NCBI GenBank assembly: GCA_032622095.1
Contig: CP136061.1
Span: 16,740,440 to 16,804,439 of the forward strand
Source of the DNA: Siphonodentalium dalli
Taxonomy: Eukaryota; Mollusca; Scaphopoda; Gadilida; Siphonodentaliidae
Direction of reading: 5' to 3'
Length of the DNA: 64,000 nt
Below, piece by piece: positions 16,107 through 63,650 of this stretch (positions are counted from its first letter, which is position 1; every line of letters starts with the position of its first letter). The position numbers were made by a program, and so were the translations under genes. A model generated the notes under the pieces. It was not told the DNA's origin, made no database searches, and worked only from the letters and a program-made list of their open reading frames with translations.

Positions 16107-18173
16107 ACAAGAGGTGGCATCAGAGATGCTGTGTCTCGTTTTCGGTGGCTTACCGCCGGTGGCTACCGCCAATTGGTGTGCATCAGTATCGGTAGACTAA
16201 TTAATAGGTAAAATCGAAAAATGACTAATTAAGGGCCATAACTCCATCAAATTTTATCGGGCCAGGCTGGTTTTCGAACTCGTCCAGGATATTATTGGAA
16301 GACACTTATATACCAAATTTTAGTTGAATCGGATGACGTTTGTTGAAGTTATCGCGCTAACGAGCTCAAAATTCGTACAAAATGACTACTTAAGGACCAT
16401 AACTCTATCAAATTTTATCGGACCGGGCCCGTTTTCTAACTCGTCCGAGGTATTCTTGGGAGACACCTATATATCAAAATTTCAATCAAATAGGATGATG
16501 TTTGTTAAATTATCGCGCTAACGAGCTGAAAATTTGTGAAAAAATGACTAATTAAGGGCCATAACTCTATCAAATTTTATCGGACCTGGCCGGTTTTCGA
16601 ACTCGACCGAGATATTCTTGGGAGACACCTATATACCAAATTTCAATTAAATCGGATAACGTTTGTTGAAGTTATCGCGCTAACGAGCTGAAAATTCGTG
16701 AAAAATGACTAATTAAGGGCCATAACTCTATAAAATTTTATCGGACCAGGCCGGTTTTCGAACTCATTCGAGATATTCTTGGGAGACACCTATATACCAA
16801 ATTTAAATCAAATCGGATAACGTTTGTTGAAGTTATCGCGCTAACGAGCTGAAAATTCGTGAAAAATGACTAATTAAGGGCCATAACTCTATCAAATTTT
16901 ATCGGACCAGGCCGGTTTTCAAACTCGTCCGAGATATTCTTGGGAGACACATATATACCAAATTTAAATCAAATCGGATAACGTTTGTTGAAGTTATCGC
17001 GCTAACGAGCTGAAAATTCCTGAAAAATGACTAATTAAGGGCCATAACTCTATCAAATTTTATCGGACCAGGCCGGTTTTCGAACTCATCCTAGATATTC
17101 TTGGGAGACACCTATATACCAAATTTCAATCAAATCGGATAACGTTTGTTGAAGTTATCGCGCTAACGAGCTGAAAATTCGTGAAAAATGACTAATTAAG
17201 GGCCATAACTCTATCAAATTTTATCGGACCAGGCCGGTTTTCGAACTCGTCCGAGATATTCTTGGGAGACACCTATATACCAAATTTAAATCAAATCGGA
17301 TAACGTTTGTTGAAGTTATCGCGCTAACGAGCTGAAAATTCCTGAAAAATGACTAATTAAGGGCCATAACTCTATCAAATTTTATCGGACCAGGCCGGTT
17401 TTCGAACTCATCCTAGATATTCTTGGGAGACACCTATATACCAAATTTCAATCAAATCGGATAACGTTTGTTGAAGTTATCGCGCTAACGAGCTGAAAAT
17501 TCGTGAAAAATGACTAATTAAGGGCCATAACTCTATCAAATTTTATCGGACCAGGCCGGTTTTCGAACTCGTCCGAGATATTCTTGGGAGACACCTATAT
17601 ACCAAATTTAAATCAAATCGGATAACGTTTGTTGAAGTTATCGCGCTAACGAGCTGAAAATTCGTGAAAAATGACTAATTAAGGGCCATAACTCTATCAA
17701 ATTTTATCGGACCAGGCCGGTTTTCGAACTCATCCTAGATATTCTTGGGAGACACCTATATACCAAATTTCAATCAAATCGGATAACGTTTGTTGAAGTT
17801 ATCGCGCTAACGAGCTGAAAATTCGTGAAAAATGACTAATTAAGGGCCATAACTCTATCAAATTTTATCGGACCAGGCCGGTTTTCGAACTCGTCCGAGA
17901 TATTCTTGGGAGACACCTATATCCCAAATTTCAATCGAATCAGATAACGTTTGTTGAAGTTGTCGCGCTAACGAGCCTAAAATCAGTGAAAAATGGCAAA
18001 GGGCCATAACTCTGTAATAAATGTGCGGAGGAACCCGATTTTTTGTCTGCATCTTACGTGCATGGATATGTACTCACACCCCAATAAACGGTTGAGTTAT
18101 AAGCAAAACACGCCGTCCGCCGCCCGCCCCTCATCAAACTATAAGTCGAGTTTTGAAAAAAAACTCAACTAAA
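16107..18173 (+). mobile_element. rolling-circle-like element, eleven 161-bp core repeats
   Basis: Starts ACAAGAGGTGGCATCAGAGA. The core begins GACTAATTAAGGGCCATAAC and recurs at a constant 161-bp spacing (about 16225 to 17836, eleven units), then a diverged last unit. A right flank ends with the stem AGTCGAGTTTT/AAAACTCAACT followed by A. The copy at 38243-39054 has the same two ends but only three cores. No target duplication is visible. A terminal hairpin, a tandem core and lack of duplication fit Helentron-derived non-autonomous elements (inference). Confidence 0.8.
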
Positions 18174-20877: not shown

Positions 20878-21118
20878 ATTAACACTTTCATTAGGTACAT
20901 GATGTGAGTTACACTGGTGCAGCATTAAAGATCATGTGCCAGTGCATTCTCTTATATATGCGAGTCTCCCATTGGAAGCCTTGCATATATAAGAGAATGC
21001 ACTAGCTTACAATGTCAAGGTAAATATTATATTCTCTTATATATATAAGGCTCCCTATGGGAGACTCGCATATATAAGAGAATGCATTGGCACAGGGTCT
21101 TTAAGGAAGGTGGGTCAT
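20878..21118. mobile_element. CCCTTTCAT-type MITE, imperfect copy with two hairpins
   Basis: Starts TTAACACTTTCATTAGG and contains GCTGGTGCAGCATTAAAGA-like sequence and the hairpins 20938-21006 and 21028-21092. The right terminal repeat is not preserved; instead a second left-like end (TTTAACCCTTTCATAAAGGG then GAGCTGGTGCAGC) begins near 21118. The intact relative is 32031-32298. Confidence 0.65.
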
Positions 21119-21189: not shown

Positions 21190-21830
21190 ATGGTGGGACA
21201 TCATGGGTGGAGTAACTCCTTTCTTATTTCTAACTGACTCTTAATATCCTATCCGTCACTTCCGTACAGTCCTCGGGTATCACATTAATCACCGGACTTC
21301 CAGCCGCCCCGCCGCTGCTCATCCCGGAGGTCATGAGTTTAGTAACTCCTTTCTAACTGACTCCTCAGTTAATATGCTATCCGATACTTCCGTACAGTCC
21401 TCGGGTATCACATTCATCACCGGACTTCCAGCTGCCCCGTCGCTGCTCATCCGGGAGGTCATGAGTTTAGTAATTCCTTTCTAACTGACTCCTCAGTTAA
21501 TATGCTATCCGATACTTCCATACAGTCCTCGGGTATCACATTAATCACCGGACTTCCAGCCGCCCCGTCGCTGCTCATCCGGGAGGTCATGAGTTTAGTA
21601 ACTCTTTTCTAACTGACTCCTCAGTTAATATGCTATCCGATACTTCCGTACAGTCTTCGGGTATCACATTCATCACCGGACTTCCAGCCGCCCCGTCGCT
21701 GCTCATCCGGGAGGTCATGAGTTCAGTAACTCCTTTCTAACTGACACCTCAGTTAATATGCTGTCCAATACTTCAGTACAGTCCTCAAGAATCACATTTA
21801 TCACCGGTCTTCCTGCCGCCACGTCGCTGC
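21190..21830 (-). repeat. 128-bp tandem array derived from ZNF277 last exon
   Basis: The landmark GCTGCTCAT occurs at 21314, 21442, 21570, 21698 and 21826, and as GCTGCTT at 21954, always exactly 128 bp apart. On the minus strand each unit is a copy of the last ZNF277 coding exon from the SSDGA codons through the stop. Since 128 is 42 codons plus 2 bases, downstream units are out of frame after the stop at 21831-21833. The array therefore lies in the 3' UTR or just beyond it. Confidence 0.95.
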
Positions 21831-22029
21831 TCATCCGGGAGGTAACGAGTTCAGTAACTCCTTTCTAACTGACTCCTCCGTTAATATGCTGTCCAATACT
21901 GCCGTACAGTCCTCGGGTATCACATTTATCACCGGACTTCCAGTCGCCCCGTCGCTGCTTGTTTCCTCATCGGGACTATCCTCTAACTGACACAACAGAT
22001 TATCATTCTCGTATGTTGGGAAGAAATAC
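21831..22029 (-). CDS. ZNF277: ZNF277 last coding exon
   Basis: The acceptor TTTTAATATTCAG precedes the exon. Its first base G completes the codon split by the previous exon (CA|G, Gln). It encodes YFFPTYENDNLLCQLEDSPD, then an acidic/serine stretch, and ends VRKELLNSLPPG before TGA at 21831-21833. FPTYEND.LL is the conserved C-terminal signature of ZNF277. The 3' two thirds of the exon (from SSDGA) is the seed of the 128-bp array running downstream. Confidence 0.93.
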
Positions 22030-22196
22030 CTGAATATTAAAACATAATAAACTTAAATGTATTCCCCCATTCGGTTATAGAAGTATACATTGGAATGGTC
22101 TATTATTCAAATGTAGGGGTGTTCTGGAAAAACCAGACGGCAGACATATGAAAAGATAATACAAGCAGAAAGCTTCCTATTGATTGGATGGAAATG

Positions 22197-22254
22197 TTCA
22201 GATAATAAGTTCAACAAATGACATATGGTACATTTGCTTAACTTATTATCTGAA
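22197..22254. repeat. near-perfect hairpin, TTCAGATAATAAGTT arms
   Basis: TTCAGATAATAAGTT and AACTTATTATCTGAA flank an inner CAAATG/CATTTG pair. A half copy (TTCAGATAATCAGTTTAACA) occurs at 26356 next to the MITE at 26382. Confidence 0.8.
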
Positions 22255-22269
22255 TAAGTGGTGACTTAT

Positions 22270-22420
22270 CAGGATTTAGTCGAAAATATGGCTTGTTGCC
22301 ATTCATTGGAATGAATGGCATTCCGATGAATGGCAACAAGCCATATTTCCGACTAAATCCTGAAAAGATACCCATAATTCTGCTGTGGTTAAGGAGTGGA
22401 TTATTTAGGGCATTACTGTA
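22270..22420. mobile_element. palindromic MITE, TTACTGTA end
   Basis: 22270-22362 is a hairpin with arms CAGGATTTAGTCG...GGCTTGTTGCCATTCAT and their complement. The right flank runs GCTGTGGTTAAGGAGTGGAT to GGGCATTACTGTA. The relative at 36589-36713 has the same CAGGATTTAGTCGG block and CAGTA...TACTG ends with TA duplication. The left end of this copy is replaced by the hairpin at 22197. Confidence 0.65.
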
Positions 22421-22468
22421 CTTGTAAATGAGTATTCAGTATACAAAGGGTTAAGATGTATATAGTAA

Positions 22469-24755
22469 TGAAAGTGTCAATGACACTGTAGCTCAACTTA
22501 GGTAGGGGAATAATTTAAAGGTACTCAATCCGAAAAGAGGGTCCCCATCTCAACAGATTCCAACAACAACAATCCGATCAGAGGGTCCTATATTACTATT
22601 TCTTTGGCTTTGGGGGTAAAAAATATTTGATTCGAGGAACCCATCAAATAAAGCTCAGAGTTATTAGATATTGATTTTTGAAATTCGTTAATTGCTCGAG
22701 ATGGGTACTAATTACTGCCGTCAATTTGGTAACCTGCTCGAGATTTTACGCCAAAACTCTATTCAAACAGACAAGGATGCATAACTCTATAGTCAAGTGG
22801 TAAAATCTGGACTGTCTTCTGGGCCAGAAAGAATTCCCGATAATGAAAAATAATAGATTTCTAAAATCGATATCTAACAAATCTGAGCTTTGATGGGTGA
22901 CTTCCTTGACTCGATTCAAATATTTTTGACCCCCGAAGCCATTGAAATAGTAATTGAGAGGAGTTTTATCGGATTGAGTACCTTCAATGGTTGACAGTAA
23001 ATGGAGGAATAGGTAAGGTGCTAATTGAAATGTCTAACCTGCGCCAAAGGATTTAGTGGTGCAAAGAGTAAAATACAAGATGGCTGCTGGCGGCCATGTT
23101 TTTTGGCCATTTGACCCCAAAAAGACTCGATCCCATCTACGTGTCATTGTTAACATCCATGACAAATTTTATGAAGATCTGACCAAAGCTACGACCTACA
23201 AATTTCATGATGATCAGACGAACAGTAAGACCTGTGGATATCGCGCCAATGGATTCAATTTTGAAATCCAAGATGGCCACTGGCAGCCATGTTTTTTTGC
23301 CGAATGACCCCAAAATGACTCGTTCCCATCTACATGTCAATGTCAACATTCATGACAAATTTCATAAAGATCAGACCAAAGGTACGACCTGTAGCCCGCG
23401 CCAAAGGATTTAGTCATGCAAAGAGTAAAATCCAAGAATGGCTGCTGGCGGCCATGTTTTTCGGCCGAATGACCCCAAAATCACTCGTTTCCATCTACAT
23501 GTCATTGTTAACAACCATGACAAATTTCATAATGTTCCGATCAAAGCTACGACCTGTAGCCCGCGCCAAAGTATTTATTCATGCAAAGAGTAAAATCCAA
23601 GATGGCTGCTGGCGCCCATGTTTTTTGGCCGAACGACCACAAAATGACTCGTTCCCATCTACATGTCAATATTAACATCCATGACAAATTTCATGATGAT
23701 CAGACAAACAGTACGACCTATAGCCCGCGCCAATGGATTGAATTTTGAAATCCAAGATGGCTGCCAGCGGAATGACCCCAAAATGACTCATTCCCATCTA
23801 CATGTCAATGTCAACATTCATGACAAATTTCATAAAGATTAGACCAAGGTACAACCTGTAGACCGCGCCAAAGGATTTAGTCATGCAAAGAGTAAAATCC
23901 AAGATGGCTGCTGGTGGCCATGTTTTTCGGCCGAACAACCCCAAAATGACTCGTTCCCATCTACATGTCATTGTTAACATCCATGACAAATTTAATGATG
24001 TTGCGATCAAAGCTACGACCTGTAGCCTGCGCCAAAGGATTTAATCATGCAAAGAGTAAAATCCAAGATGGCTGCTGGCGGCCATGTTTTTTGGCCGAAC
24101 GACCCCCAAAATGACTCGTTCCCATCTACATGTCAATATTAACATCCATGACAAATTTCATGATGATCAGACGAACAGTACGACCTGTAGCCCGTGCCAA
24201 TGGATTGAATTTTGATATCCAAGTAGGCCGCCAGCGGCCATGTTTTTTGGCTGAATGACCCCACAATGATTCGTTCCCATCTACATGTCAATGTCAACAT
24301 CCATGACAAATTTCATAAACTTCTGACCAACGCAACGACCTGTAGCCCGCGCCAAAGGATTTAGTCATGCAAAGAGTAAAATCCAAGATGGCTGCTGGCA
24401 GCCATGTTTTTCGGACGAACGACCCCAAAATCACTCGTTTCCCATCTACATGTCATAATTAACATCATTGAGAAATTTCATGATGATCAGACGAACAGTA
24501 CGACCTGTAGCCCGCGCCATAGGTTGAATCTTGAAATCCAAGATGGCTGCCAGCGGCCATGTTTTTTGGCCGAATGACCCAAAATGACTCGTTCCCATCT
24601 ACATGTCAATGTCAACATTCATGACAAATTTCATAAAGATCAGACCAAAGGTACGACCTGTAGCCCGCGCCAAAGGAAATTGTTGACGGACACACGGACG
24701 ACGGACGCCAAATCATGGCAATAGCTCAAACTTACAAAAGTAAGTTGTGCTAAAA
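22469..24755 (+). mobile_element. rolling-circle-like element with about ten AAGATGGCTGC cores
   Basis: Left end GTGTCAATGACACTGTAGCT; about ten tandem cores of 155-170 bp from 23040 (GGATTTAGTCATGCAAAGAG, AAATCCAAGATGGCTGC, CCATGTTTTT, GACTCGTTCCCATCTACATG, CATGACAAATTTCAT, CGACCTGTAGCCCGCGCC); tail GTTGACGGACACACGGACGA; terminal stem AACTTAC-AAAA-GTAAGTT at 24729-24746. Non-coding. Interrupted near its start by 22519-22983. Helentron-like by layout (inference). Confidence 0.75.
22519..22983. mobile_element. MITE with AGGTACTCAATCCGA ends
   Basis: Inverted ends AGGTACTCAATCCGA and TCGGATTGAGTACCT. Flanks are TTAA on the left and TCAA on the right, possibly a mutated TTAA duplication. The interior is non-coding and contains a second inverted pair around CTCGAGAT. 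It splits the start of the element at 22469 from its cores. Confidence 0.75.
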
Positions 24756-25420
24756 ACCAGTAAAATTCAGTATTGTACATCATTATAAACCAATGGTACC
24801 ATACAGCTTAGGAGGTGGGAAGTGACCATCTATACCATGCAGCCAAAATACGGGGTGGGAAGTACATGAAATCAGATTTTGGATTATGACATTTTTATGG
24901 GATTAAAGGAACAGAAATATTCAAAGACAACCTATAATAGCTGAATTGTGGTTGTTTCTGACCTGGCAGGGTCCAGCAAAACATTCTATTCTGTTCAAAC
25001 TGAATATTGAACCGAAAACACATTAATGTTCGAAAATAAAATAAAATATAGAATCAAACTTAGTGAGACCGGACAAACATAAAATTGTATAATTAAGGGT
25101 AGTTTCAACCCGGAATGTTTGGTTTTATTGGGAAAATAGTGACTTCTTGCAACCGAAATTAAAAAAAATATATATCAATAAAATATAGCCTCATTCTTGT
25201 TTGTCAACATGTAGTTTTAGATGTGTGAAGTTACTCCTTGACCCTTGACCATACGGCAAAGTATGATGCTATATGGTACAAAGACTGACAACGTGTAACC
25301 GATTGAGGAATAATGTACTCAGAAAACAATTTCCATGTCACGGAACTCCAAACAACTTTATTTTTAGATAAAATGTTGTTTTGTATTTAGTGCCGAGTTA
25401 ATGATTATTGCATGCATATG

Positions 25421-25635
25421 TGACCCGCCATATCAAATCCAGTCATAAGTCAGGATTTTTTTACCCTGTGCCAATGCATTCTCTTATATATACGAGTCGA
25501 CCATAGGTCGCCTCGTATATATAAGAGAATGAATTAGCCTAACAATTTTTTACAATTTTAATAATTTTTTCTTGTAGTCTTTAAAATTTTATAATTTCAC
25601 CCTTACAGAGCCCCAGCCGTAAAAGTAGACATGTG
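25421..25635. mobile_element. half copy of the TGTGACCCGCC MITE
   Basis: ATATGTGACCCGCCATATCA and the hairpin at 25470-25538 match the left arm of 10451-10910. After it, AACAATTTTTTACAATTTTA and a stretch ending AGCCCCAG match the reverse complement of the interior of that element. The other arm is absent. Confidence 0.85.
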
Positions 25636-26011
25636 GTTGTGAATTGAAAACTGAGTTCATGCTTCTCAGATTGTATGAATTATACATTAATCAAGTTCGT
25701 TTGAAGCATGTAACTTTGGCTGCATGGTTCATTTCTGGAATTGTTCTGATGCGTATTGTGTACTTTAAAATTAAGGTGTTTGTTCATGTTTGAGGAAATT
25801 ATTTCACAATTCCTGTGTACTCTTTACTTGCAATTGTTTTATGATTCTGAGAATGTATTCAAAATATTAATTGCGAATGTTACAACAGCTGGCCGTCACC
25901 ATTGAACCAAAATAGTAGAACTGAATTCGAATTGAATATTGGGACCAAATCGAAAAATGAATCAATCATCGAATATCCACAGGACCCTAAGACCTGGTTA
26001 CTGTAACTCAC

Positions 26012-26136
26012 TGAGGTTGGTCCCAAATGGATGGCTCTGGTATTTTGTTTGTGTGAGATGTCTCATCCATATGTTGTAACAACTCTTCCTTTGTCGGAAA
26101 TTTATCTTGACAACTGAAGCATGCTAAAGAATGAAT
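26012..26136 (-). CDS. ZNF277: ZNF277 exon with C2H2 finger
   Basis: The acceptor CATTTTCAG precedes ATTCAT. The exon encodes IHSLACFSCQDKFPTKEELL, QHMDETSH and then IPEPSIWDQP, with a C-x2-C-x12-H-x5-H finger. It ends in CA before the donor GTGAGT, giving phase 2, which matches the next exon's leading G. The WDQ after the last finger is conserved in ZNF277 proteins. At 125 nt it starts in phase 0, matching the CAG end of the upstream exon. Confidence 0.92.
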
Positions 26137-26165
26137 CTGAAAATGAAGAAAGAAAATGCCATAGA

Positions 26166-26285
26166 AACAAGAGTGTCAATGACTGTGTGTTAATTGAAAG
26201 ACTATACATACTTCCAAGAAGATGAGGTCTAAACAGAATGAGGTCCCCAGAGGGTGATTTTGGTGAAGCAGAGAATATAGAAACC
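26166..26285. repeat. ACAAGAG start joined to half of a palindromic repeat
   Basis: ACAAGAGTGTCAATGACTGT is the start type of the element at 22469. CTTCCAAGAAGATGAGG and AGAATGAGGTCCCCAGAGGG follow, which is one arm of the GAGGTCCCC palindrome family; the second arm is missing. Confidence 0.65.
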
Positions 26286-26381
26286 AACAATAACTTTTTA
26301 GTACAATACCAATTAACCCTTTGTTTACAAAATATTCATTGACGAGTAGTTACCTTCAGATAATCAGTTTAACAAATGGCC

Positions 26382-26553
26382 TTAACCCTTTGAGTGCCAG
26401 GGCCCGATCTTATCGGCCCTAAACCTACACAATAAGTCTGTTAAAGAATATAATAAAATATATTAAAATTGTAAAATCGCATATATAAGAGAATGCATTG
26501 GCACAGGGTATATCAGTTGATACAAAAATCGGACCTGGCACTCAAAGGGTTAA
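26382..26553. mobile_element. piggyBac-like MITE, CCCTTTGAGTGCCAGG ends
   Basis: TTAA duplications at 26382-26385 and 26550-26553 flank perfect inverted ends CCCTTTGAGTGCCAGG and CCTGGCACTCAAAGGG, extended by CCGAT and ATCGG. The short interior contains one arm of the shared hairpin (CGCATATATAAGAGAATGCA then TTGGCACAGGG). About 172 bp with duplications. Confidence 0.92.
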
Positions 26554-26644
26554 AACGGCTGAAGGTAATTTGTAATAGTGGACTAGCTTGAATAACTGGT
26601 ATGATTTGATACTGAGCCTCATTTTGACATCAATGAGAACGTAC

Positions 26645-26837
26645 CTGTCTGCGTATATAGTTGACTAGCTTGACTTGTTGGTAGAAGTTGAGACTCAGCC
26701 TCATTTTGATTTCGCTGAGATCGAAGTCGTGTAGCTCTTGCATGTGAAGGCTCAATCGCTCAGCTTTGCTTGATGAAAATGGACAAAACAGGCAGTGTGC
26801 CTGAGATCCAGCCTCCTCAACCCAACCTTCCCAGTCA
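26645..26837 (-). CDS. ZNF277: ZNF277 exon with C2H2 finger
   Basis: The acceptor TCTCTTTACAG precedes T-GAC-TGG. It encodes DWEGWVEEAG, CLFCPFSSSKAERLSLHMQE, LHDFDLSEIK and LNFYQQVKLVNYIRRQ, then donor CAG|GTACGT. The finger is C-x2-C-x12-H-x5-H, and NFYQQVKLVN.IRRQ is a strongly conserved ZNF277 block. At 193 nt it starts with one base completing a GAT codon and ends in phase 0. The first 16 exon bases and the acceptor are copied in the array at 26838-27395. Confidence 0.95.
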
Positions 26838-27395
26838 CTGTAAAGAGAAATAACTTTATATAGAATATACTCAACCTTCCCAGTCACTGAAAAGGGAAAT
26901 AAGTCTATTTAGAATATATTCAACCCTCCCAGTCACTGTAAAGAGAAATAACTCTATTTAGAATATACTCAACCCTCCCAATCACTGAAAAGGGAAATAA
27001 CTCTATTTAGAATATACTCAACCTTCCCAGTCAATGTAAGGAAAATAACCCTATTTAGCATACTCAACTCTCCCAGTAAAGGAAAAGGGAAATAACTCTA
27101 TTTAGAATATACTCAACCCTCTCAGTCACTGTAAAAGGAAATAACACTATTTAGAATATATTCATCCCTCCCAGTCACTGTAAAAGGAAATAGCACTATT
27201 TAGAATATACTCAAACCTCCAAGTCACTGAAAAGGGAAATAACTCTATTTAGAATATTTATAACTCTATTTAGAATACACTCAACCCTCCCAGTCACTAT
27301 AAAGGGAAATAACTCTATTTAGAACATACTCAACCCTCCCAGCAAAGGAAAATAACTCTCATGAGAATAGAATATTTTCAACCCTCCCAGTCACC
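26838..27395 (-). repeat. about 49-bp array that copies the exon's splice acceptor
   Basis: Reading minus, each unit runs TATTCTAAATAGAGTTATTT, then CCCTTTTCAG-like pyrimidine tract and AG, then TGACTGGGAAGGTTG, the first exon bases of 26645-26837. Copies of CCCAGTCACT (or close variants) recur every 48-49 bp about eleven times between 26880 and 27390. The array lies wholly on the intron side of the real acceptor. Confidence 0.93.
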
Positions 27396-27690
27396 CTCTC
27401 CCCTCCCTAGCAACCCTCTCCCCTCCCAGTCACACTCTCCCCTCCCTAGCGACTCATGATTTCTCCACTCCCAGTCACCCTCTCCCCTCCTTAGCCATCA
27501 TGATTTCTCCCCTCCCAGTCACCATCTCCCCTCCCTAGCGACTCATGATTTCTCCCCTCCCCATCACCCTCTCCCCTCCCTAGCGACTCATGATTTCTCC
27601 CCTCCCCGTCACCCTCTCCCCTCCTTAGCCATCATGATTTCTCCCCTCCCAGTCACCATCTCCCCTCCCTAGCGACTCATGATTTCTTGT
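27395..27690. repeat. pyrimidine-rich tandem repeats of about 45-60 bp
   Basis: Variants of TCTCCCCTCCCTAGCGACTC, ATGATTTCTCCCCTCC and CAGTCACC recur about six times. The CCAGTCACC string links it to the end of the preceding acceptor array, so it may have grown from it. Confidence 0.85.
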
Positions 27691-27724
27691 TGTCTGTCTG
27701 AATGAGATTCTGACCTCCTGGTGA

Positions 27725-28084
27725 CAAACTGGTATAAGATTTATATTTTTTAGATATTAAAAGTTATAACGACTATCGACTTGCTCCTTTTTGTCGTCCG
27801 TCTGGTATAAGATTTAGTTTTTTATCAATGTACTCTTTTTCATTGTCTAGTCTGGTATAAGATATATATTTTTTATCGACTTACTCTTTCTTGTTGTTCG
27901 TCTGGTATAAGATATATATTTTTTATTGACATACTCTTTTTCATTGTCTGTCTGGTATAAGATATATATTTTTTATCGACTTACTCTTTCTTGTTGTTCG
28001 TCTGGTATAAGATATATATTTTTTATCAACTTACTCTTTTTCGTTGTCTGCCTGGTATAAGATATATATTTTTTATTGACTTAC
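27725..28084 (-). repeat. 50-bp array that copies the exon's splice donor
   Basis: GGTATAAGAT occurs at 27804, 27854, 27904, 27954, 28004 and 28054, exactly 50 bp apart, with one more diverged unit at 27731. On the minus strand each unit holds CAGACGAACAACAAGAAAGA-type exon-tail sequence, then GTAAGTCGATAAAA and ATATATCTTATAC. The first part matches the 3' end of exon 28085-28161 and its donor GTAAGT. Confidence 0.95.
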
Positions 28085-28161
28085 TCTTTTTCATCGTCCG
28101 TCTGATCATCAAACAGTGGATCCTTCTGTTTGTGGATCACCTCCCAATTCTTACCGATCTC
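28085..28161 (-). CDS. ZNF277: ZNF277 exon, acidic linker between fingers
   Basis: The acceptor TTGTATTCCAG precedes GAGATC. It encodes EIGKNWEVIH, KQKDPLFDDQ and TDDEKE, corresponding to the (E)LGKSWE acidic linker of known ZNF277, and ends AAA-GA before donor GTAAGT. At 77 nt it starts in phase 0 and ends with two bases that combine with the T of the next exon. The last about 20 bases plus donor seed the 50-bp array downstream. Confidence 0.9.
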
Positions 28162-28195
28162 CTGGAATACAAAACCAGACTCTCTATATCTCAAG

Positions 28196-28660
28196 TTAAC
28201 CCTTTACCCAACAGAACGGCCCTGTGCCAATGCATTCTCTTATATATGCGAGTCGACCATAGGTCGCCTCGCATATATAAGAGAATGCATTGGATTAACA
28301 CATATTGAAAATGATAAAATTATCAAAGAATGTAGAAAAATATTGTCAAAATTGTTAAAAAATGTAAGAAAAAATTATAAAATTGTTAAAGAATGTAAGA
28401 AAAAATGGTAAAAAGTGTTAAAAAAAGAATTTTTTTAGGCCAATGCATTCTCTTATATATGCAAGGCGACCTATGGTCGACTCGCATATATAAGAGAATG
28501 CATTGGCACAGGGCATAACTGTAACCATCACAATGTCGTCAATGAACCGGTTCCAATGATATCCATATTTGTATGGTGTTATTGAGACAGACAGAAGATA
28601 TTTTAGGCTGTTGAATCTTTATTTGGGCGTTTTTGGCCGTTTTGTTGGGTAAAGGGTTAA
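28196..28660. mobile_element. piggyBac-like MITE, CCCTTTACCCAACA ends, complete
   Basis: TTAA at 28196-28199 and 28657-28660; inverted ends CCCTTTACCCAACAGAACGG and CCGTTTTGTTGGGTAAAGGG. Contains two copies of the shared hairpin (28226-28293 and 28439-28507). It lies in a ZNF277 intron about 35 bp from exon 28085-28161. Same family as 12595-13462. Confidence 0.93.
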
Positions 28661-28939
28661 TCAGTATTCCATCGAAAAAGCCAAACACAACCGAACATAA
28701 CCAAACACAAGGCATATGTAGTTATCTTTCGACTAGTCTCTTGTGAAGTTTTGTGCAGTTTGGGTCACTAATAAGATATATAATAAACATTTTATATAAC
28801 GCATTTATCTTCAGCATCAAAAATCCAAACACAAGTGGGGGTAGTATATACCCTTATAAAAAACACTCTGGTAAAAGCCAGATAAACCATAGTTTATATG
28901 GGTAAAAGCCATGTAAAGTATGTACAAATGACATATCCT

Positions 28940-29300
28940 TGTAAAGTCCATGTAAAGGCATTGTATGGCTGCGGTCACCCCAAAGATCCATATGAAGATT
29001 GGTGATGATTGGATGAGAGAGGTGGCCTAAAGTGTGTGCTGAAGGATTTAGTCATACAAAGAGTAAAATTCAAGATGGTCGCTGATAGCCATATTTTTCA
29101 AAGAAATTCTGAATAATTTGATGGCTCCCATCTAGAGGTGATCCTAAACATGCCTGTAAATTTTCAAACAATTCTCAAATAAATGTGGGCTGCAGGATGT
29201 GCTGATAGATCAAATAGGGTGTGCTAACGGAAATTGTTGACTGATGGACGCACGCACGCACAGATGATGGATGCCAATCCAACACAATAGCTCAGTGCAG
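28940..29300 (+). repeat. short AAGATGG-core element
   Basis: GGATTTAGTCATACAAAGAG, AAATTCAAGATGGTCGCTG, GGCTCCCATCTAGAGGTGAT and the tail GTTGACTGATGGACGCACGC match one or two cores plus tail of the family at 1655 and 22469. Confidence 0.7.
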
Positions 29301-29404
29301 TCATAATGACAGGTACAAGCAAAAATTCGCTGGTCATTTGGGCTTTTCACCCGGTCATTGACCATGACCGAATGCTTATATCCAGTCTTGCTGCTCTCTT
29401 CACA

Positions 29405-29577
29405 TATTATCTATCATAGTTCCTGTTCTTTGGGCTGATTTTCTTACTTACCAGGTAATTAATCACATAATATCTATCATAGTTCCTGTTCTTTGGGCTG
29501 ATTTTCTTACTTACCAGGTAATTAATCACATAATATCTATCATAGTTCCTTTTCTTTGGGCTGATTTTCTCACTTAC
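29405..29577 (-). repeat. 63-bp in-frame array copying exon tail and donor
   Basis: CTATCATAGTTCC occurs at 29411, 29474, 29537 and 29600, exactly 63 bp apart; the last lies in the real exon. Each minus-strand unit encodes KISPKNRNYDRYYVINYL and then carries the donor GTAAGT. Because 63 is a multiple of 3 and the donor reads Val-Ser, the frame stays open through three extra units, creating competing donors and possible in-frame exon extension. Confidence 0.95.
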
Positions 29578-29710
29578 CAGGTAATTAATCACATAATATC
29601 TATCATAGTTCCTGTTCTTTGGGCTGATTTTCCGATGTTGTTTCTTTCTCATATGCTCTCGTAACACTGTTCTGTCTTTGAATGTTTTCTCACAGTATAG
29701 ACACTGTAAG
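29578..29710 (-). CDS. ZNF277: ZNF277 exon with C2H2 finger
   Basis: The acceptor CTTTCCAG precedes CTTACAG. It encodes LQCLYCEKTFKDRTVLREHM, RKKQHRKISPK and DRYYVINYL before the donor GTAAGT. The finger is C-x2-C-x12-H-x5-H, and HMRKKQHRKI.PKN.(E)YDR(F/Y)YVINYL is a hallmark of ZNF277. The first base C completes an Asn codon from the previous exon. 133 nt; ends in phase 0. Confidence 0.96.
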
Positions 29711-31448
29711 CTGGAAAGAAAAAGGAGAAAACAAGCATATATAAAAGAGTGATGAAGGGATGGATAAACATTGCATCCCATATTACCCACAATTAATACA
29801 TAGCCAAATTATGTTAATTTGTGGCCACCTATTTTTTTTTTAATTATAAGTTGAACGAGAGGCCGATCGCGATCAGCAGATGTTTAAACCATCCCTCGCC
29901 GATAGCATATAGCTATGATCGGAATCATAATCTAGAGTTTTTATTTTGGATTATAGAGTATATTGTTATGTACTACTAAAGTATAAGAGACAAATGAACA
30001 TAATAATACAAATTTTCAAATTATTTGAATTTATGGGTCAAAAGAGAAAGGTTAATATAACATCTGAACTGAAGAGCCTGCCCTGTAACTTGAAAAAGAT
30101 TACCACAGTTCATACAAAAGACATTAAGTAGCCCTCAATAAAATGTTTTCATACATTACAATGTTTTACAAGTATCTTGGAAGCTAAAATCCTTAACATT
30201 CAATTTTAATCTTCTAAGTGCTCTGCAGCCGCTAAAATTCAATCAACAATGACAATATGAACAGATTTGAAACTATGGCAATAATCCACACTAACTATTA
30301 ACAATATCTGCCTTTTTGGACTGGAGAAAATGATTTTTTAAGTACTTATTTTATTTCGAGTTATCTGACCCTTTTGTTGTCTCCTGTCTAGGACCCGTTG
30401 AAGCCCCTGACATGATAAGCTGAAGTCAGCCCTTTCCAAATGCTCTATAGTACTGAATCAATATTTTTCATACATAGAAAGGCATTGATTCTGTTCTTGA
30501 GATAAAATCCATGAAAACCCCATAGCCCTCAAAGTTAATCTTCTGACCCCTCAGTGGACCAAAAAGTCACTCAACCATGAACAAATAATGAGCTAGGTCT
30601 TCTAGCAATTGTCCATACCAAGTATTAATGAAATCCGCCCATTGGGACTGCACAATAATAAGAAGTATTTAAAATAGTGCTATCTGGTCCTAACCCGACC
30701 CAACCCTTTTGTTGCCTGTCGTCAAATAATTCTAAAGCCCCTTTAAAACAAGATTTAAAATGAGCAATCTAGCCCCAAGGATAATACAGGTACATATATC
30801 TTATTCTTGCCAATAACATTATGTGCTCCACAGACACGAATGGTCAGTATGAGTAATTTTATAACTATAATGTGCCAGTGGTTTCTGACATCATTCATGT
30901 GGTAAGTATATTGAGACAAGGTTGGACACAAATTTGTGTAATTTAGAAGGTGCCCTAGACTTTTGAAACTGTGGCTCCAGATGCTGGACCAGTATTATAG
31001 CACCCAATATTTGTCATCTGCATTTAAAATAGATTTTGTTGAATGTTGAACGGAGAAAGTTTTTTTAACATCGATGTTGGAAGCCAGAAACAATAGTGCT
31101 ATCTGATCCTAACCCTTTTGTTGCCTGTCGTCAAATAATCCTAAAGCCCCTTTAAAACAAGATTTAAAATGAGCAATAATGAGAATGCTGGCAGAATATC
31201 ACATTTGCTTTAACTGACTAATACTCATTGATAATTCATGAATAAAGCTACTGAATCTGTTTGATCATACTCTGAAAACAACCCAACAAATTAACAATGG
31301 ACTATTCCAATTTATATTTTTAGAACTTAATGGGAGAGTCCATTCAGTCATGAATGGGCTACAGATTATAATTCATGTTGGGCTAACATGATAGCTATAA
31401 ATCTCAGTTTCAATAAATCATATAGGAATGCAGGTGATAATGTTCTCA
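29711..31448 (-). other. ZNF277: ZNF277 intron, mostly unassigned
   Basis: Contains a duplicated block of about 95 bp (near 30670-30775 and 31090-31175, including TTTTGTTGCCTGTCGTCAAA and AAGCCCCTTTAAAACAAGAT). The segment 29845-29917 (GAGAGGCCGATCGCGATC, CGATAGC) recurs at 40830-40900. Otherwise nothing is recognised. Confidence 0.6.
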
Positions 31449-31830
31449 CAATGGGAAGCCTGTACTATTATCGAGTTATCAGAGCATTGGTGAATTCTAG
31501 GTAAAAAAGGACCATATCTTGATCTGCATTTTGGACAGAGGAACCCACATACCAAATATGGTTCTGATCAGATAAAAAATGTTTGAGTTATCACAGCATG
31601 CATGAACCCATATTCAAACTTGATCTGTATTTTGGGCTGATAAGCTCATATACCAAATTCAGTTCGAATCAAATATAAAATGTTTGAGATATTGCACCAT
31701 GCGTAAAAGTGTCTACAGACAGACTGACAGACAGACGGTCAGACAGACAGACATATCAATGGATGGACGAATGACAAGTGGACAATCCGGACATCGACAA
31801 TAAGTGTACCAAATAAAAAAAACTTATACT
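31449..31830 (+). repeat. GGACCATA/TTCGAA-type repeat with GACAGACGG tail
   Basis: Two degenerate cores (GATCTGCATTTTGGACAGAG, CATACCAAATATGGTTCTGA, GTTTGAGTTATCACAGCATG) are followed by CAGACAGACTGACAGACAGA and GGACGAATGACAAGTGGACA. The family matches 41955-42775 and 57715-57960. Its end is only a few bases from the splice donor at 31835-31840. Confidence 0.7.
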
Positions 31831-31840
31831 TAAATCTTAC

Positions 31841-31886
31841 TTGTCTAACTTCTCTTTCAATTTATCCAGAAATTCATCTATGAAGA
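31841..31886 (-). CDS. ZNF277: ZNF277 46-nt microexon-like exon
   Basis: The acceptor TCTTGTTTCAG precedes TCTTCATAG; donor GTAAGA. It encodes (V)FIDEFLDKLKEKLD(N), matching the conserved NEFL..L..KLDNLQC segment of ZNF277 just before the CLYC finger. Phase 2 at both ends, joining GTC on the left and AAC on the right. Too short to be found as an ORF. Confidence 0.88.
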
Positions 31887-32030
31887 CTGAAACAAGAAAC
31901 CGAGATGAAAATAAATGTAGACATCAGATCACATATAAGATATTAATTTAATTTTCAGACAATAGTTGTTTTATGCTGGCAAGGAAATAATCAAAGGCAA
32001 ATATACAACAAGAGCACTGCGAGGCATGGC

Positions 32031-32298
32031 TTAACCCTTTCATGATGGGAGCTGCATTGGTGCGGCATTAAAGACCCTGTGCCAGTGCATTCTCTTATAT
32101 ATGCGAGTCTCCCATAGGGAGCCTCGCATATATAAGAGAACGCACTGGCTTACAAGATCGAGGTCAATATTGTTAGGCAATGTATTCTCTTATATATGCG
32201 AAGCACCCTATGGGCTACTTGCATATATATATATAAGAGAATGCACTGGCACATGGTTTTCAAAAAAATTCAGGAAGCTTCAAACATGAAAGGGTTAA
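32031..32298. mobile_element. piggyBac-like MITE, CCCTTTCATG ends
   Basis: TTAA at both ends with CCCTTTCATGATGGGAGCTG and its partner GAAGCTTCAAACATGAAAGGG. Holds two copies of the shared hairpin (32081-32149 and 32176-32250). It sits directly after an ACAAGAGCACTGCGAGGCAT start at 31989, so it landed in a second repeat. Confidence 0.88.
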
Positions 32299-34239
32299 AG
32301 ACATGTTATGTACTTGTTCGGGTGCGTACAACTGATAAGTTAGTATTCAAGCACTATGCCAACTGGAGGAATGTAACATTCTACTAACATCGCCGAAAAT
32401 CTTAAGCTAAACTACCCCTACCACTCCATAGAAAACATTGTCTGAACTACGCTCAATTGTAAATATTTACTACTCGATTCGGGACGCATCTATATCTGCG
32501 ATAAACTAACGAAAACCATTTCCCCATCGAGAGTCACTGCAATTAATTAATATATAAGAATGACGGTGCGTGTTATCAATTTGGATATAAATTTGTAAAA
32601 ATTACTACTTTGAACAAGATTATTCTCTATTTCTATTCGATCACCCTGTTGGAGTGTTTCACATCACTTTAATATGCCCGTTTGCAAAGTAAATTGCTGT
32701 CATCTTTCAAAGAAAATTGCCTAAACTAACATACAATATATGAGTCCAATAGAATAACGCAAAATATCATCTGGAAAGCAAGAATATGCAAATATATAAG
32801 TCGAAAAGCACCACAACTCCAGAAAAAATCATCGAACCAACCCAAGTTCGAACTCGACCTGTATTTTGGTATGACTGAGCCACATACCAAGTTTAGTTGT
32901 GACCAAATAATCCAAACTCAAATTATCATCCAGAAACCAAAATGTTGACGTAAAAATTTAATTTTCCAAGTCAAAAAATGCCCATAACTCTGGCAAAAAA
33001 CATTATGTTCACAGACAAACGGACAGATGGACGGACTGATTAAATAATACGGACCGTTTTTCAAACGAGCGTATAAAAACTGCACATGTGCTGCACATGT
33101 CGATGATGATGGTGTGATTTTTGTTCAAAATACATGTACTGACCACTAATTAATATGGACTGAATTCCCTTGTCCAGGGGAACACTGCACATGTAAAAGA
33201 TGATGGTGTGATTTGACTCATTTTTCATGTCATCAAGGAGTACCCCTTTAATACATGTTTCTTAATAATGTATTTCACATTAGGTGGAGGACCAGCTCGA
33301 GATTGCATGATTTATATGCTTTTGTGAGCCACTTTTTCCTTTCAGTGCTGACAATAACAGAAATTTCCCCGCGGTAATCAATTAATGTTTATAATGAAAT
33401 CAGTGTCACATAAATCATGTAATCACGAGCTGGGACCTTCACCTACTGTGAAATGCATAATTAATGCAATGCTTTTTAAAGGGATGGGCAGCCTTCGTTG
33501 TAGGTTATAATATAGAAATAACATTTTTAAATTATGATAATTTACTCAAGAATATACTAATAGTGTAGCATAATGATACGATTGTCCAAGAAAATACACA
33601 GGTCGACTGTTATTTAGTTTCTCGCAAAAAGCACAGTAGATTGTTTATAAGCAGAATCATGATATTGCGCCATTTCAATATTTAGATTAGCGCGCTTTAT
33701 ATGGTGGTTGTAAAATCTCTAATGCGGTGCACCTGCAACTTACAACTCACAATACCACTCATAGTAATAATCCTTAATTGGTATGTGACCATATATAGGT
33801 TAGGAGAAAATACTAACTGGATTAAAAAATATTCATTACTTTGCAAGAACAATTATATTACCGGTATGTACACATTTTCTGTCTGATCATTTCACAATCA
33901 TGAAGTAACGTGGATTAGCTTGATTTGAACTGACAGCGGGTTGAATGGGTTCAATTAAAATAAAAATTGGTGTGATTTGAATGCGATTGTTGATTGCGGC
34001 AATAATTTTATCTACGCATTCCACAGTGGGATATTTTCATTGGACGATATGGTAGTTCTAAGTGTTTCTCTATAAACAATCGTAACATAATGTTTTTTTT
34101 ATGTTTGTTTACATAACCATGGGTACAAACGTGACAATAACATGTGATGCACACGATATTTTAGATTTAATATTCTTTCTGTTTATGGTGGTTTTAGCAG
34201 ATGTGACTACGTTAAAATCTATACCCACAGGGAAGGCCG
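32299..34239 (-). other. ZNF277: ZNF277 intron, mostly unassigned
   Basis: A degraded core with GCCCATAACTCTGGC and the tail GACAAACGGACAGATGGACG lies at about 32820-33060. The short repeat CTGCACATGT...GATGATGGTGTGATTT occurs near 33080 and 33185. Other sequence is unrecognised. Confidence 0.5.
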
Positions 34240-34247
34240 CCCGTATC

Positions 34248-35365
34248 TAGGGGTGCCACGATTAATCGTATAATCGATGAACCGTTAATAAAGACAATAA
34301 TCGATTACCATTTCCATCATCGACTAATCTGCGTTATTTATTTCGGACGTTGGAAGATGCTGGTTATTGTTGAAACATGTACCCTGATTGTTTTAAACAG
34401 TCTAAATTACAACTGAGGGGTTAACAACATTTGATCATGTATCAAAGAGATTCCGACAACTTGAGTACTACTGGTATATGTTGCAAACAGCCAGCAGTTC
34501 ATTTAATGACATGGTTACTCTTCGGGTCATTGTATATTCTTCAAATTGCATGGCGGTACTGCAGCTTTGAACTTATGCCGACATCGTTGTATATTTCTAC
34601 AAGAAAGGCGGCAAGTGCTATGTCTTTGAAATGGGCTGACTGTCAGTGAACTGATGCACTAGCCCTTAAATCTCACTGGACCAAAGGGGAGTTAATTGAC
34701 ATTCTCTCGAAATCAGGGAACATACAGTATTTTAATCAGCGATATTCTCTGTGGTGTCACTTGCAGCAATTATACTTTGTTTGTATTCAAGTACACTTAG
34801 ATGTTATTAGTACAGGCTGTCACTTATAGTGTGGTGACTGCTAAATGAAATTGACTATTACCAAATAATTAACTTGTTCCGAGTCCTGAAAATTGCGGGC
34901 GGGTGCCTACCATTGTAATTGTTATCCATGCTCTGGAAGTTTGCAGAAACTTAATAGTTTCCATAACATTAGATTCCTTTTTTCTTAGAAACCACCATCG
35001 GTCCGTCGTGCATTCCTACTTTTATATTGCTGGTTTGTCTGGCTATTAAATTAATCGCTACGCTCGTTCCAATGAACTCACAAATATAACCATAACATCG
35101 CCGAAAACTGTGCTTGTATTGAATACATTGTGCTCATTAGTCATTACCGGTGGTTTATGATGCACTTTATTAACACCAAAATTACACCAGTCGATGCCTC
35201 AAACAATCAGCGATAGCAGTTAACCAGCACCCAGCCAATATGGCAATAGGACATATTACGGAATACTTCCACTGATGTTATTAATATTAAGTATGATTAA
35301 TCGATAAAAGTCGATTATTGACGACCGATTATCGATTATCAAAATCAATAATCGTGGCACCTCTA
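34248..35365. mobile_element. hAT-type element, TAGGGGTGCCACGATT ends
   Basis: The 8-bp duplication CCCGTATC is exact at 34240-34247 and 35366-35373. Inverted ends TAGGGGTGCCACGATTAATC and ATCAATAATCGTGGCACCTC plus TA. Inner ends have several ATCGATTA words typical of hAT ends of this kind. 1118 bp; no intact transposase. A 72-codon frame at 34431-34649 is not recognisable. Confidence 0.93.
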
Positions 35366-35580
35366 CCCGTATCTTTAACTACAATATTACCTGCAATATT
35401 TTGTCAATGTTATGAAGTTCCACGTCTCATCATCAAAAAGTTCAAGGTTTTGTAAAAGTAGAACATGACCAGAGTAGAGATTCTCCAATATTATTTATTA
35501 TCATTATTTGATTTAATATTAGAACTTTTGTTTGGCTTTAAAAGACTGACCTCAAAAACTTCAGTATACAACAACCTAAG

Positions 35581-35684
35581 GTTATCTGCATGACCAATGT
35601 TGAAACTGTGTTCTATCATGTGATACTAACCCAGGTTATCTGTATGACCGATGTTGAAACAGTGTTCTATCATGTTATACTAAC
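35581..35684 (-). repeat. 54-bp array copying exon and donor
   Basis: GTTATCTG(C/T)ATGACC recurs at 35581, 35635 and 35689, 54 bp apart. On the minus strand the two extra units repeat CATGATAGAACACAGTTTCA, ACATTGGTCATGCAGATAAC and a GTTAGT-type donor; the outermost unit has a mutated donor. 54 is a multiple of 3. Confidence 0.93.
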
Positions 35685-35749
35685 CTAGGTTATCTGCATG
35701 ACCAATGTTGAAACTGTGTTCTTCTATCATGTGGCTCAGCATCGGTAAT
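35685..35749 (-). CDS. ZNF277: ZNF277 exon, second half of a C2H2 finger
   Basis: The acceptor TATGTTTGTAG precedes ATTACCG; donor CTAG|GTTAGT. It encodes LPMLSHMIEEHSFNIGHADN L, matching the conserved LLNHM..EHAFNIGLPDN block of ZNF277. It supplies the histidines H-x4-H for the finger whose cysteines are in exon 37786-37877. Phases (1 base at each end) match its neighbours. Confidence 0.92.
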
Positions 35750-37785: not shown

Positions 37786-37877
37786 CTGCTATGCTTGAAC
37801 TGTTCTTGACAGAAGAGACACATTTTACAAAATGAGGAATCCTCTCTTTCCTTGTGTTGAACTTCAAGTATTCTCTC
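37786..37877 (-). CDS. ZNF277: ZNF277 exon, first half of a C2H2 finger
   Basis: The acceptor TTGACTTTCAG precedes GAGAGAATAC; donor GCAG|GTTAGA. It encodes ERILEVQHKEREDSSFCKMC and LFCQEQFKHS(R), corresponding to the basic/acidic helix and C(M/L)FC..EF.(G)NR block of ZNF277. The cysteines C-x2-C pair with histidines in exon 35685-35749. Starts in phase 0 and ends with AG, which combines with A to give Arg. Confidence 0.92.
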
Positions 37878-38242: not shown

Positions 38243-39054
38243 AAGAGGTGGCATCAGAGATGCTGTGTGTCGTTTTCGGTGGCTTACCGCCGGTGGCTAC
38301 CACCGGTGGCTACCGCCAATTGGTGTGCATCAGTATCGGTAGACTAATTAATAGGTAAAATCGAAAAATGACTAATTAAGGGACATAACTCTATCAAATT
38401 TTATCGGGCCAGGCTGGTTTTCGAACTCGTCCGAAATATTCTTGGCAAGTACGTCTATTCCAAATTTTAAACAAATCGGAGGACGTTTGTTGAAGTTATC
38501 GTGCTAAAGAGCTAAAAATTCACGAAAAATGACTAATTAAGGGCCATAACTCTATAAAATTTTATCGGACCAGGCCGGTTTTCGAACTCGTCCGAGATAT
38601 TCTTGGGAGACACCTATATACCAAATTTCAATCAAATCGGATAACGTTTGTTGAAGTTATCGCGCTAACGAGCTGAAAATTCGTGAAAAATGACTAATTA
38701 AGGGCCATAACTCTATCAAATTTTATCGGACCAGGCCGGTTTTCGAACTCGTCCGAGATATTCTTGGGAGACACCTATATCCTAAATTTCAATCGAATCA
38801 GATAACATTTATTGAAGTTGTTGCGCTAACGAGCCTAAAATCAGTGAAAAATGGCAAAGGGCCATAACTCTGTAATAAATGTGCGGACGAACCCGATTTT
38901 TTGTCTGCAGCTTACGTGCATGGATATGTACTCACACACAAATTTTTTTTTTAATCCGTCAAACGTTTGATGTTATAAGCAAAACAGGCCGCCCACCCGC
39001 CCGTCCGCCGTCCCCCATCAAACTATAAGTCGAGTTTTGGAAAAAAACTCGACT
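38243..39054 (+). mobile_element. rolling-circle-like element, three 161-bp cores
   Basis: Start ACAAGAGGTGGCATCAGAGA and end stem AGTCGAGTTTT/AAAACTCGACT are the same as at 16107-18173. Core landmarks at about 38372, 38533 and 38694 are 161 bp apart. It sits inside a GAGTAAAATCCAAGATGG-type core with at most a TA repeated at the junctions. Confidence 0.85.
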
Positions 39055-40189: not shown

Positions 40190-40272
40190 CAATGTTTTCT
40201 TTTGCAAAAATTCTCTGAGCTGGTTATCTTCAGGAAGAACATCACAAAGTAAGTAGTACTGATCTTTTGGAC
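40190..40272 (-). CDS. ZNF277: ZNF277 exon
   Basis: The acceptor TTTAATGTTGCAG precedes GTCCAAAAG; donor TTG|GTAAGA. It encodes (G)PKDQYYLLCDVLPEDNQLR and EFLQKKTL, matching the conserved Y(F/Y)LLCDVLPED..LRE.LQK segment of ZNF277. Starts with two bases of a split codon and ends in phase 0, joining GAG of the next exon. The upstream exon that should supply the first base was not found. Confidence 0.93.
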
Positions 40273-56078: not shown

Positions 56079-56500
56079 AATCGTACGTATTACTAAGACT
56101 ATCATTGGTGTAATAGATCAACTTGAGATAACAGAGATATTCTGTCTGTACACACAACTATTTCAGCGATGGATGAACTGAGATTTGATATCTAGATTTT
56201 TGTTATCAATCTCTCAAACAAGGGGCCAGCACTCGTGGTTCAAACTGTTTTTGGTAAGACACCACAAAACATGCCAGATGTGTGATGGGCGCAATTATAG
56301 GCAGCTCTAGTTTGTATTTATGTTGAGGCTGCTTACCGGTATCCATTCGTTACTTGTTTTGACTTACCGGTATCCGTTGTTAACGTGTTTGTATTTATCA
56401 CAGAGCAGTAGAAATCCAACGGTTCATTTCGGAATCTCTCCTTCCAGTAAAGAATATACCTGTGAATAAGATTGATATATCATATCACACATTTCTTATA

Positions 56501-59647: not shown

Positions 59648-59898
59648 CCTTTTAAATCGCTGATGAGGTTAACGTCACCGATAACCAGTTTGTGTCCATG
59701 AAGGAGATGCCGCAGGAAATCATCGGTACCTTTGGTGACATCATGAGTGACATCACACAGGCAGCATGGTAACGATTCACATCCGCGGTGAGCTATCGAA
59801 GGTGCAGACGTCAGGTCGCTGTCAGATAAATGTAGTGGTTCAAGAAACGTACCTCTCTCTTCTTTCGGCATCATTTCATCCAATGATAAACAACAGTC
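59648..59898 (-). CDS. ZNF277: ZNF277 N-proximal exon
   Basis: The acceptor ATTTCCTACAG precedes ACTGTTG; donor AAAAGG|GTAAGT. It encodes CCLSLDEMMPKEERGTFLEP, LHLSDSDL, then SLPCCLCDVTHD and DFLRHLLHGHKLVIGDVNLI. The LEPL.L...(V/L)PC.FC...LL.H(M)..(E/G)HK.VI.DV pattern is that of the N-terminal finger region of ZNF277. An ATG within the exon (GAAATGATG) could start translation, but the open frame continues to the acceptor, so an earlier exon may hold the start. Ends with two bases of a split codon. Confidence 0.85.
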
Positions 59899-63571: not shown

Positions 63572-63650
63572 TATATTTGTATCACTTCGAAGCTTCTTAT
63601 AAATTTGATAGTCTGCGTCTCAACGAGATCTCCTGTACTTTTTGTAAGCC

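Follow-up and report, generated by a model that had tools for sequence, protein, structure and literature searches.

Tandem duplications across exon edges of the ZNF277 gene in the scaphopod Siphonodentalium dalli

In this work, we analysed a window of 64,000 bp from the scaphopod mollusc Siphonodentalium dalli (GenBank assembly GCA_032622095.1, contig CP136061.1, positions 16,740,440 to 16,804,439 of the forward strand), which sits in contig C1 of a 2.23 Gb genome with nine long contigs, and the gene on its minus strand, which by protein similarity is the ZNF277 orthologue. A protein search returned 948 matches; among the best 22 of the 120 that were listed, the matches with a named source were ZNF277-like proteins of bivalves and gastropods, with 54-63% identity, and one ostracod protein with 42%. 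Using mollusc ZNF277 proteins as queries, 11 exons were recognised, spread from about 59.9 kb down to 21.8 kb of the window (Table 1). Joining all 11 through the splice sites that are closest to the exon bodies gave a single open frame that matched the relatives, and these exon-proximal sites are presumably the ones used in the animal. Of seven frames tested with Pfam, three contained C2H2 fingers, and exon 7 alone passed the PF12756 cut-off.

Seven tandem duplications were found at exon ends, in six of the 11 exons: at the donors of exons 2, 5, 7 and 8, at the acceptor and in the tail of exon 9, and at the coding end of exon 11. An initial, sequence-only reading of the window had described five arrays, with units of 128, 49, 50, 63 and 54 bp, and Tandem Repeats Finder (TRF) confirmed all of them in place and unit length; each unit contains the border of its own exon, except at exon 11, where it contains the coding end. 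The count of five affected exons among ten has to be corrected, as the gene has 11 exons and the cases at exon 2 and in the exon 9 tail had been missed. In the exon 9 acceptor array, TRF ended at 27257 and more copies were seen by eye up to 27372. The copy of the exon 9 tail was found by alignment (26657-26723 against 26575-26641, offset 82 bp, 77.6% identical, E 9e-13), and this alignment does not cross its donor. The exon 11 case affects a coding end and not an exon-intron boundary, with the first copy being coding and the remaining ones lying past the stop. Copies 2 to 5 retain ...VRKELLNS followed by TGA (four sites), and the last copy is decayed. VRKELLNS and a stop form the C-terminus of the relatives; the functional copy lacks that stop, having TCGTTA at its former position, and continues with LPPG and then TGA, so that it ends four residues later.

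The array units are unrelated, as had been claimed: the cross-matches reached only E 1.8 or worse, save for a motif, GTGACTGGGAGGG, that is common to the exon 9 array and a 45-bp array inside intron 8 (E 0.048). A common ancestry of the arrays was rejected on these cross-matches, except for this possible tie, and the view that several independent tandem duplications contained exon borders is supported. The 45-bp array, which has 13 bases in common with the exon 9 border, looks as if it had been founded by a distal copy of the exon 9 array, and it may derive from that border. Of the 1247 bp of intron 8, 1052 bp (84%) are taken up by three arrays, namely that of exon 8, the 45-bp one and that of exon 9.

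Table 1. Exons and tandem arrays of ZNF277 (window positions; a slash within a sequence marks the exon-intron border)
Feature	Position	Strand	Basis
Exon 1	59648..59895	-	tblastn, sequence; 5' end uncertain
Exon 2	56368..56459	-	tblastn, frame
Exon 2 donor duplication, 31 bp, 1.9 copies, both with CCG/GTAAG	56332..56390	-	TRF, sequence
Exon 3	40190..40272	-	tblastn; edge duplication not found
Exon 4	37786..37877	-	tblastn; edge duplication not found
Exon 5	35685..35749	-	tblastn, frame
Exon 5 donor array, 54-bp units: exon tail and AG/GTTAGT	35579..35722	-	TRF, sequence
Exon 6	31841..31886	-	tblastn; edge duplication not found
Exon 7, C2H2 finger	29578..29710	-	tblastn; PF12756 above cut-off
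Exon 7 donor array, 63-bp units with CTG/GTAAGT	29400..29632	-	TRF, sequence
Exon 8	28085..28161	-	tblastn, frame
Exon 8 donor array, 50-bp units: exon tail, AGA/GTAAGT and intron start	27774..28104	-	TRF, sequence
45-bp array inside intron 8, unit start GTGACTGGGAGGG as in exon 9 array	27382..27687	-	TRF, by eye
Exon 9 acceptor array, ~49-bp units: polypyrimidine-AG and first 15-16 exon bases	26823..27372	-	TRF, by eye
Exon 9, C2H2 finger	26645..26837	-	tblastn; slightly under Pfam cut-off
Exon 9 tail and decayed copy just within intron 9	26575..26723	-	alignment; absent from TRF list
Exon 10	26012..26136	-	tblastn; edge duplication not found
Exon 11 (last), coding part and stop	21831..22029	-	tblastn with mollusc ZNF277, sequence
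Exon 11 coding-end array, 128-bp units	21195..21959	-	TRF (21241-21959), sequence

Similar structures are known from lancelets as mirages, i.e., minisatellite-like duplications of intron-exon boundaries in the alcohol dehydrogenase, globin, troponin C and PGBD5 genes (PMC3087553, PMC3902484). These papers report that regular splicing is retained, that some mirages vary in length, and that the units measure 10-72 bp (Adh3) or 150-160 bp (globins). On this description, the ZNF277 arrays share several traits with the mirages: the unit spans the exon-intron boundary (donors of exons 2, 5, 7 and 8; acceptor of exon 9), both 5' and 3' boundaries are affected in this genome, the unit lengths of 31, 49, 50, 54, 63 and 128 bp fall inside the range of about 10-160 bp, and the AG and GT splice signals are kept in many, but not all, copies. 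The differences are that the lancelet is a chordate and S. dalli a mollusc, that seven events are found in one gene with arrays from both sides filling most of one intron, and that the structures are known here from the genome sequence alone. Repeats at exon-intron boundaries have also been described in human paralogues in segmental duplications (PMC2812944). These too are minisatellite-class repeats, some of them at exon-intron boundaries and able to alter gene structure; they are, however, recent, with new introns that are supported by transcripts, whereas ZNF277 is a conserved gene studied at the genomic level. No such boundary repeats were noticed in the accessible part of a gastropod haemocyanin paper (PMC7931591), and a literature search in the titles and abstracts of open papers gave no mollusc report of them, the zebra mussel genome paper (PMC9210306) being among the hits, which does not imply that none has been published. 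The arrays are of a kind already known, perhaps found here in a new lineage, and call for no new mechanism. Within-gene tandem duplication linked to splice sites has also reportedly yielded a new intron (PMC4974935); such intron gain makes a new intron, whereas the duplications in ZNF277 copy the edges of existing exons. The idea that new introns or exons could start from such arrays has been put forward for lancelet globins and would suit an intron that is 84% array; as the duplications here adjoin introns that already exist, we regard it as the least probable of the explanations considered.

We consider it probable (roughly 0.8) that the ZNF277 arrays are mirage-type repeats, that is, ordinary short tandem duplications (31-128 bp) that fell across exon edges in a duplication-rich genome, with no special mechanism. 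This reading builds on the anatomy of the arrays, the open frame through the proximal sites, the density of tandem duplications and the presence of the same structures in other genes. Short tandem duplications would arise genome-wide; one that lay inside an exon would alter the protein, while one across a single edge would leave the exon and its splice site intact. Among the duplications that touch an exon, those across a single edge would hence be the likeliest to persist, and they are probably nearly neutral. The extra copies would land in the intron or, at exon 11, past the stop. Some of these duplications would then expand, presumably by unequal exchange or slippage, into minisatellites, and decay. 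The sequence-only reading had remarked that each array extends away from the coding side; the direction is correct, but it is forced by geometry, because, in a duplication that straddles one edge, every copy beyond the one joined to the exon has to lie towards the intron.

In 20 random 10-kb stretches, the mean tandem-array coverage of the genome was 10.8% (median 7.9%), compared with 37% between 20 and 30 kb of the window. At a coverage of 10.8%, at least five of 20 edges would be covered with P=0.057. The permutation that the sequence-only reading had proposed gave a divided answer: when all 28 merged arrays were shuffled within the gene, a mean of 3.06 splice edges was covered against the 5/20 observed (p=0.21), while shuffling only the 23 arrays shorter than 500 bp gave a mean of 1.22 (p=0.014). 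Tandem duplications of any kind spanned 19.9% of the intron points of ZNF277 and 16.5% of random genome points, against which the 5/20 edges are unremarkable (P=0.37 and 0.22, respectively); for locally derived duplications, the corresponding shares were 6.1% and 9.0%. These binomial P values, and those given below for the same comparisons, are rough because intron points cluster in arrays. Arrays in this genome are largely dense enough for overlap with exon edges to be expected, the very situation that had been named as telling against a special mechanism, and a moderate excess of ZNF277 over local duplications is left.

The same structures were looked for in chaperonin and proteasome genes of this genome (55 exons), with matches to myosin, kinase and adaptin left out. 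For the chaperonins (PF00118), 41 of the 53 matches were used, the others being two long intron-poor matches, nine near-identical second copies and one further match; for the proteasome (PF00227), 14 of the 20 were used, leaving out one single-exon match, four with internal stops and one other. The flanks measured about 450-700 bp, and the edges were set by a splice-score rule, under which 103 of the 110 exon ends lay above the cut and seven donors were excluded. One metric served for the survey edges, the intron points and the ZNF277 edges, the latter lying in the tests within about 6 bp of the edges in the final gene model. By this metric, 5/103 survey edges (two acceptors and three donors) were spanned by a tandem duplication. 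Inspection by eye gave six duplicated edges in six of the 55 exons, namely the acceptors of L028, L038 and L050 and the donors of L037, L040 and L041, and the supposed peculiarity of ZNF277 as a single locus could not be upheld. These edges belonged to three of the nine chaperonin loci (grouped by position), two in each, and none of the 14 proteasome exons surveyed had a duplicated edge. The units were 39-155 bp long; in L040, a unit of about 39 bp occurs 11 times. At L041, the rule picked the wrong donor; the true one is at about 893 by eye, and the duplicated exon tail ends 2 bp before it. L050 falls outside the metric count and enters by eye only, because its aligned copy begins at the acceptor.

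Two further observations were made on the chaperonin exons. At L050 (544-592 and 699-747), a copy of the exon start lies 155 bp upstream, and its acceptor seems better than the one adjoining the exon body. Moreover, several chaperonin exons of this genome (G000) are doubled, with nearly equal scores and about 37-170 kb apart (C7:133.43/133.49, C1:54.10/54.27, C1:68.37/68.54 and C8:26.61/26.65 Mb), and represent either recent segmental duplications or uncollapsed haplotypes; if they are haplotypes, they would permit the copy number of edge arrays to be compared between alleles.

In the survey loci, 10.3% of the intron points (11.35% on a finer grid) were spanned when all duplications were considered and 3.7% when only locally derived ones were. 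What counts as local is an upper estimate, since no more than 0.36 Mb served as the reference for recognising dispersed repeats. At points 50-110 bp from an exon, the values were 5.5% (all) and 2.7% (local), and within the exons, 2.3% of the points (30/1279) were spanned. These figures bear on whether tandem duplications in this lineage arise preferentially at exon edges, and most of all at donors, by a transcription- or splicing-linked process such as R-loops or RNA-templated repair, with a liability that differs strongly between regions, so that some genes have many duplicated edges. A splice-site-linked origin of this kind, which had been suggested as a common mechanism, would predict an excess at the survey edges, but these were not significantly above the local intron rate of 3.7% (P=0.34 for 5/103 and P=0.19 for 6/103), were rarer than expected from the 11.35% of all duplications (P of at most six = 0.045), and were divided about equally between acceptors and donors (two and three by the metric; three and three by eye). 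In ZNF277, on the other hand, the donor side predominates (exons 2, 5, 7 and 8 and the exon 9 tail against one acceptor), as such an origin would have it.

Several results weigh against ordinary duplication as the sole explanation, and those that concern ZNF277 also speak for the splice-linked one. The 5/20 edges of ZNF277 exceed the local rate (P=0.006 against its own introns and 0.029 against the random genome). A strict local filter, which removes exon 2, leaves 4/20 edges, with P=0.03 against its own introns, although this is weaker against the random genome (P=0.098). The gene also stands above the survey genes (5/20 vs. 5/103, Fisher p=0.010; with six edges against six, p=0.004). Furthermore, the survey edges did not fall short of the rate of local duplications at intron points (3.7%, or 2.7% at 50-110 bp), even though a purging of changes that touch exons might be expected. 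ZNF277, however, was chosen after the fact, for looking striking, and at the survey rate about 19 of 25,000 genes would be expected to have at least six duplicated edges, assuming 20 edges per gene and an even spread. Its position above the average gene would follow from an unusually array-dense region together with its having been picked as striking. Some excess over local duplications remains unexplained, but it is moderate, and on balance we think a splice-linked origin unlikely.

The distal copies gave little reason to assume that selection retains them, be it as reserve splice sites, as had also been suggested, or for useful alternative ends of exons. In the exon 8 array, divergence was a little lower in the donor motif than elsewhere in the unit (0.083 vs. 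0.123), whereas in the exon 9 array the acceptor motif diverged more (0.116 vs. 0.065), and several distal sites of both arrays are broken; across these two arrays, the distal splice motifs thus show no clear or consistent sign of constraint. In favour of such a role, the first three copies of the exon 7 array are open in frame, and the distal donors of its 63-bp unit would add 21 or 42 residues. The units of exon 8 (50 bp) and exon 9 (49 bp), by contrast, break the frame, and reading through at exon 5 reaches a stop. Retention of the copies by selection is very doubtful to us. The same can be said of an artefact of assembly, in which copies were invented or miscounted: the copy number of tandem arrays is prone to error, but the copies within an array are not identical (about 78-97% alike), the same structure recurs at independent loci with two to 11 copies, and the contigs are 190-301 Mb long.

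Beyond ZNF277, the window contains other repeats. Inverted repeats that resemble miniature inverted-repeat transposable elements lie at 20950-21090, 25470-25535, 28225-28295, 28440-28515 and 32085-32260; these short palindromic elements have arms like CTCTTATATATGCGAG and are found near CAATGCATT or GGCACAGG. A 161-bp unit is common to two separate arrays (16216-18013 and 38362-38875), a dispersed tandem family, and an open frame of 606 residues on the minus strand (61802-63619) resembles, by eye, a reverse transcriptase of the long interspersed nuclear element type. When other genes of the window were sought as controls, only transposon-like frames and pieces of ZNF277 were recognised by eye among the 95 frames listed outside the larger arrays, for which no family search was run, and the search for RNA genes in the window gave no Rfam match at the gathering score and no tRNA. 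Elsewhere in the genome, a tandem series of dozens of protein-kinase frames, intronless and nearly identical, lies at G000:C2:149.83-150.60 Mb, many of them about 2.4-2.9 kb apart.

Read as ordinary duplications across exon edges, the ZNF277 arrays carry the mirage phenomenon from lancelets to a mollusc genome and provide a rough rate for it, five or six of 103 splice edges in 55 exons. They also serve as a caution: with tandem duplications at such a density, exon-edge arrays within a single gene can be accounted for without any special mechanism. Moreover, two questions become testable in one genome: how the spliceosome selects among about ten near-identical acceptors at exon 9, and how often edge duplications become new exon ends or introns.

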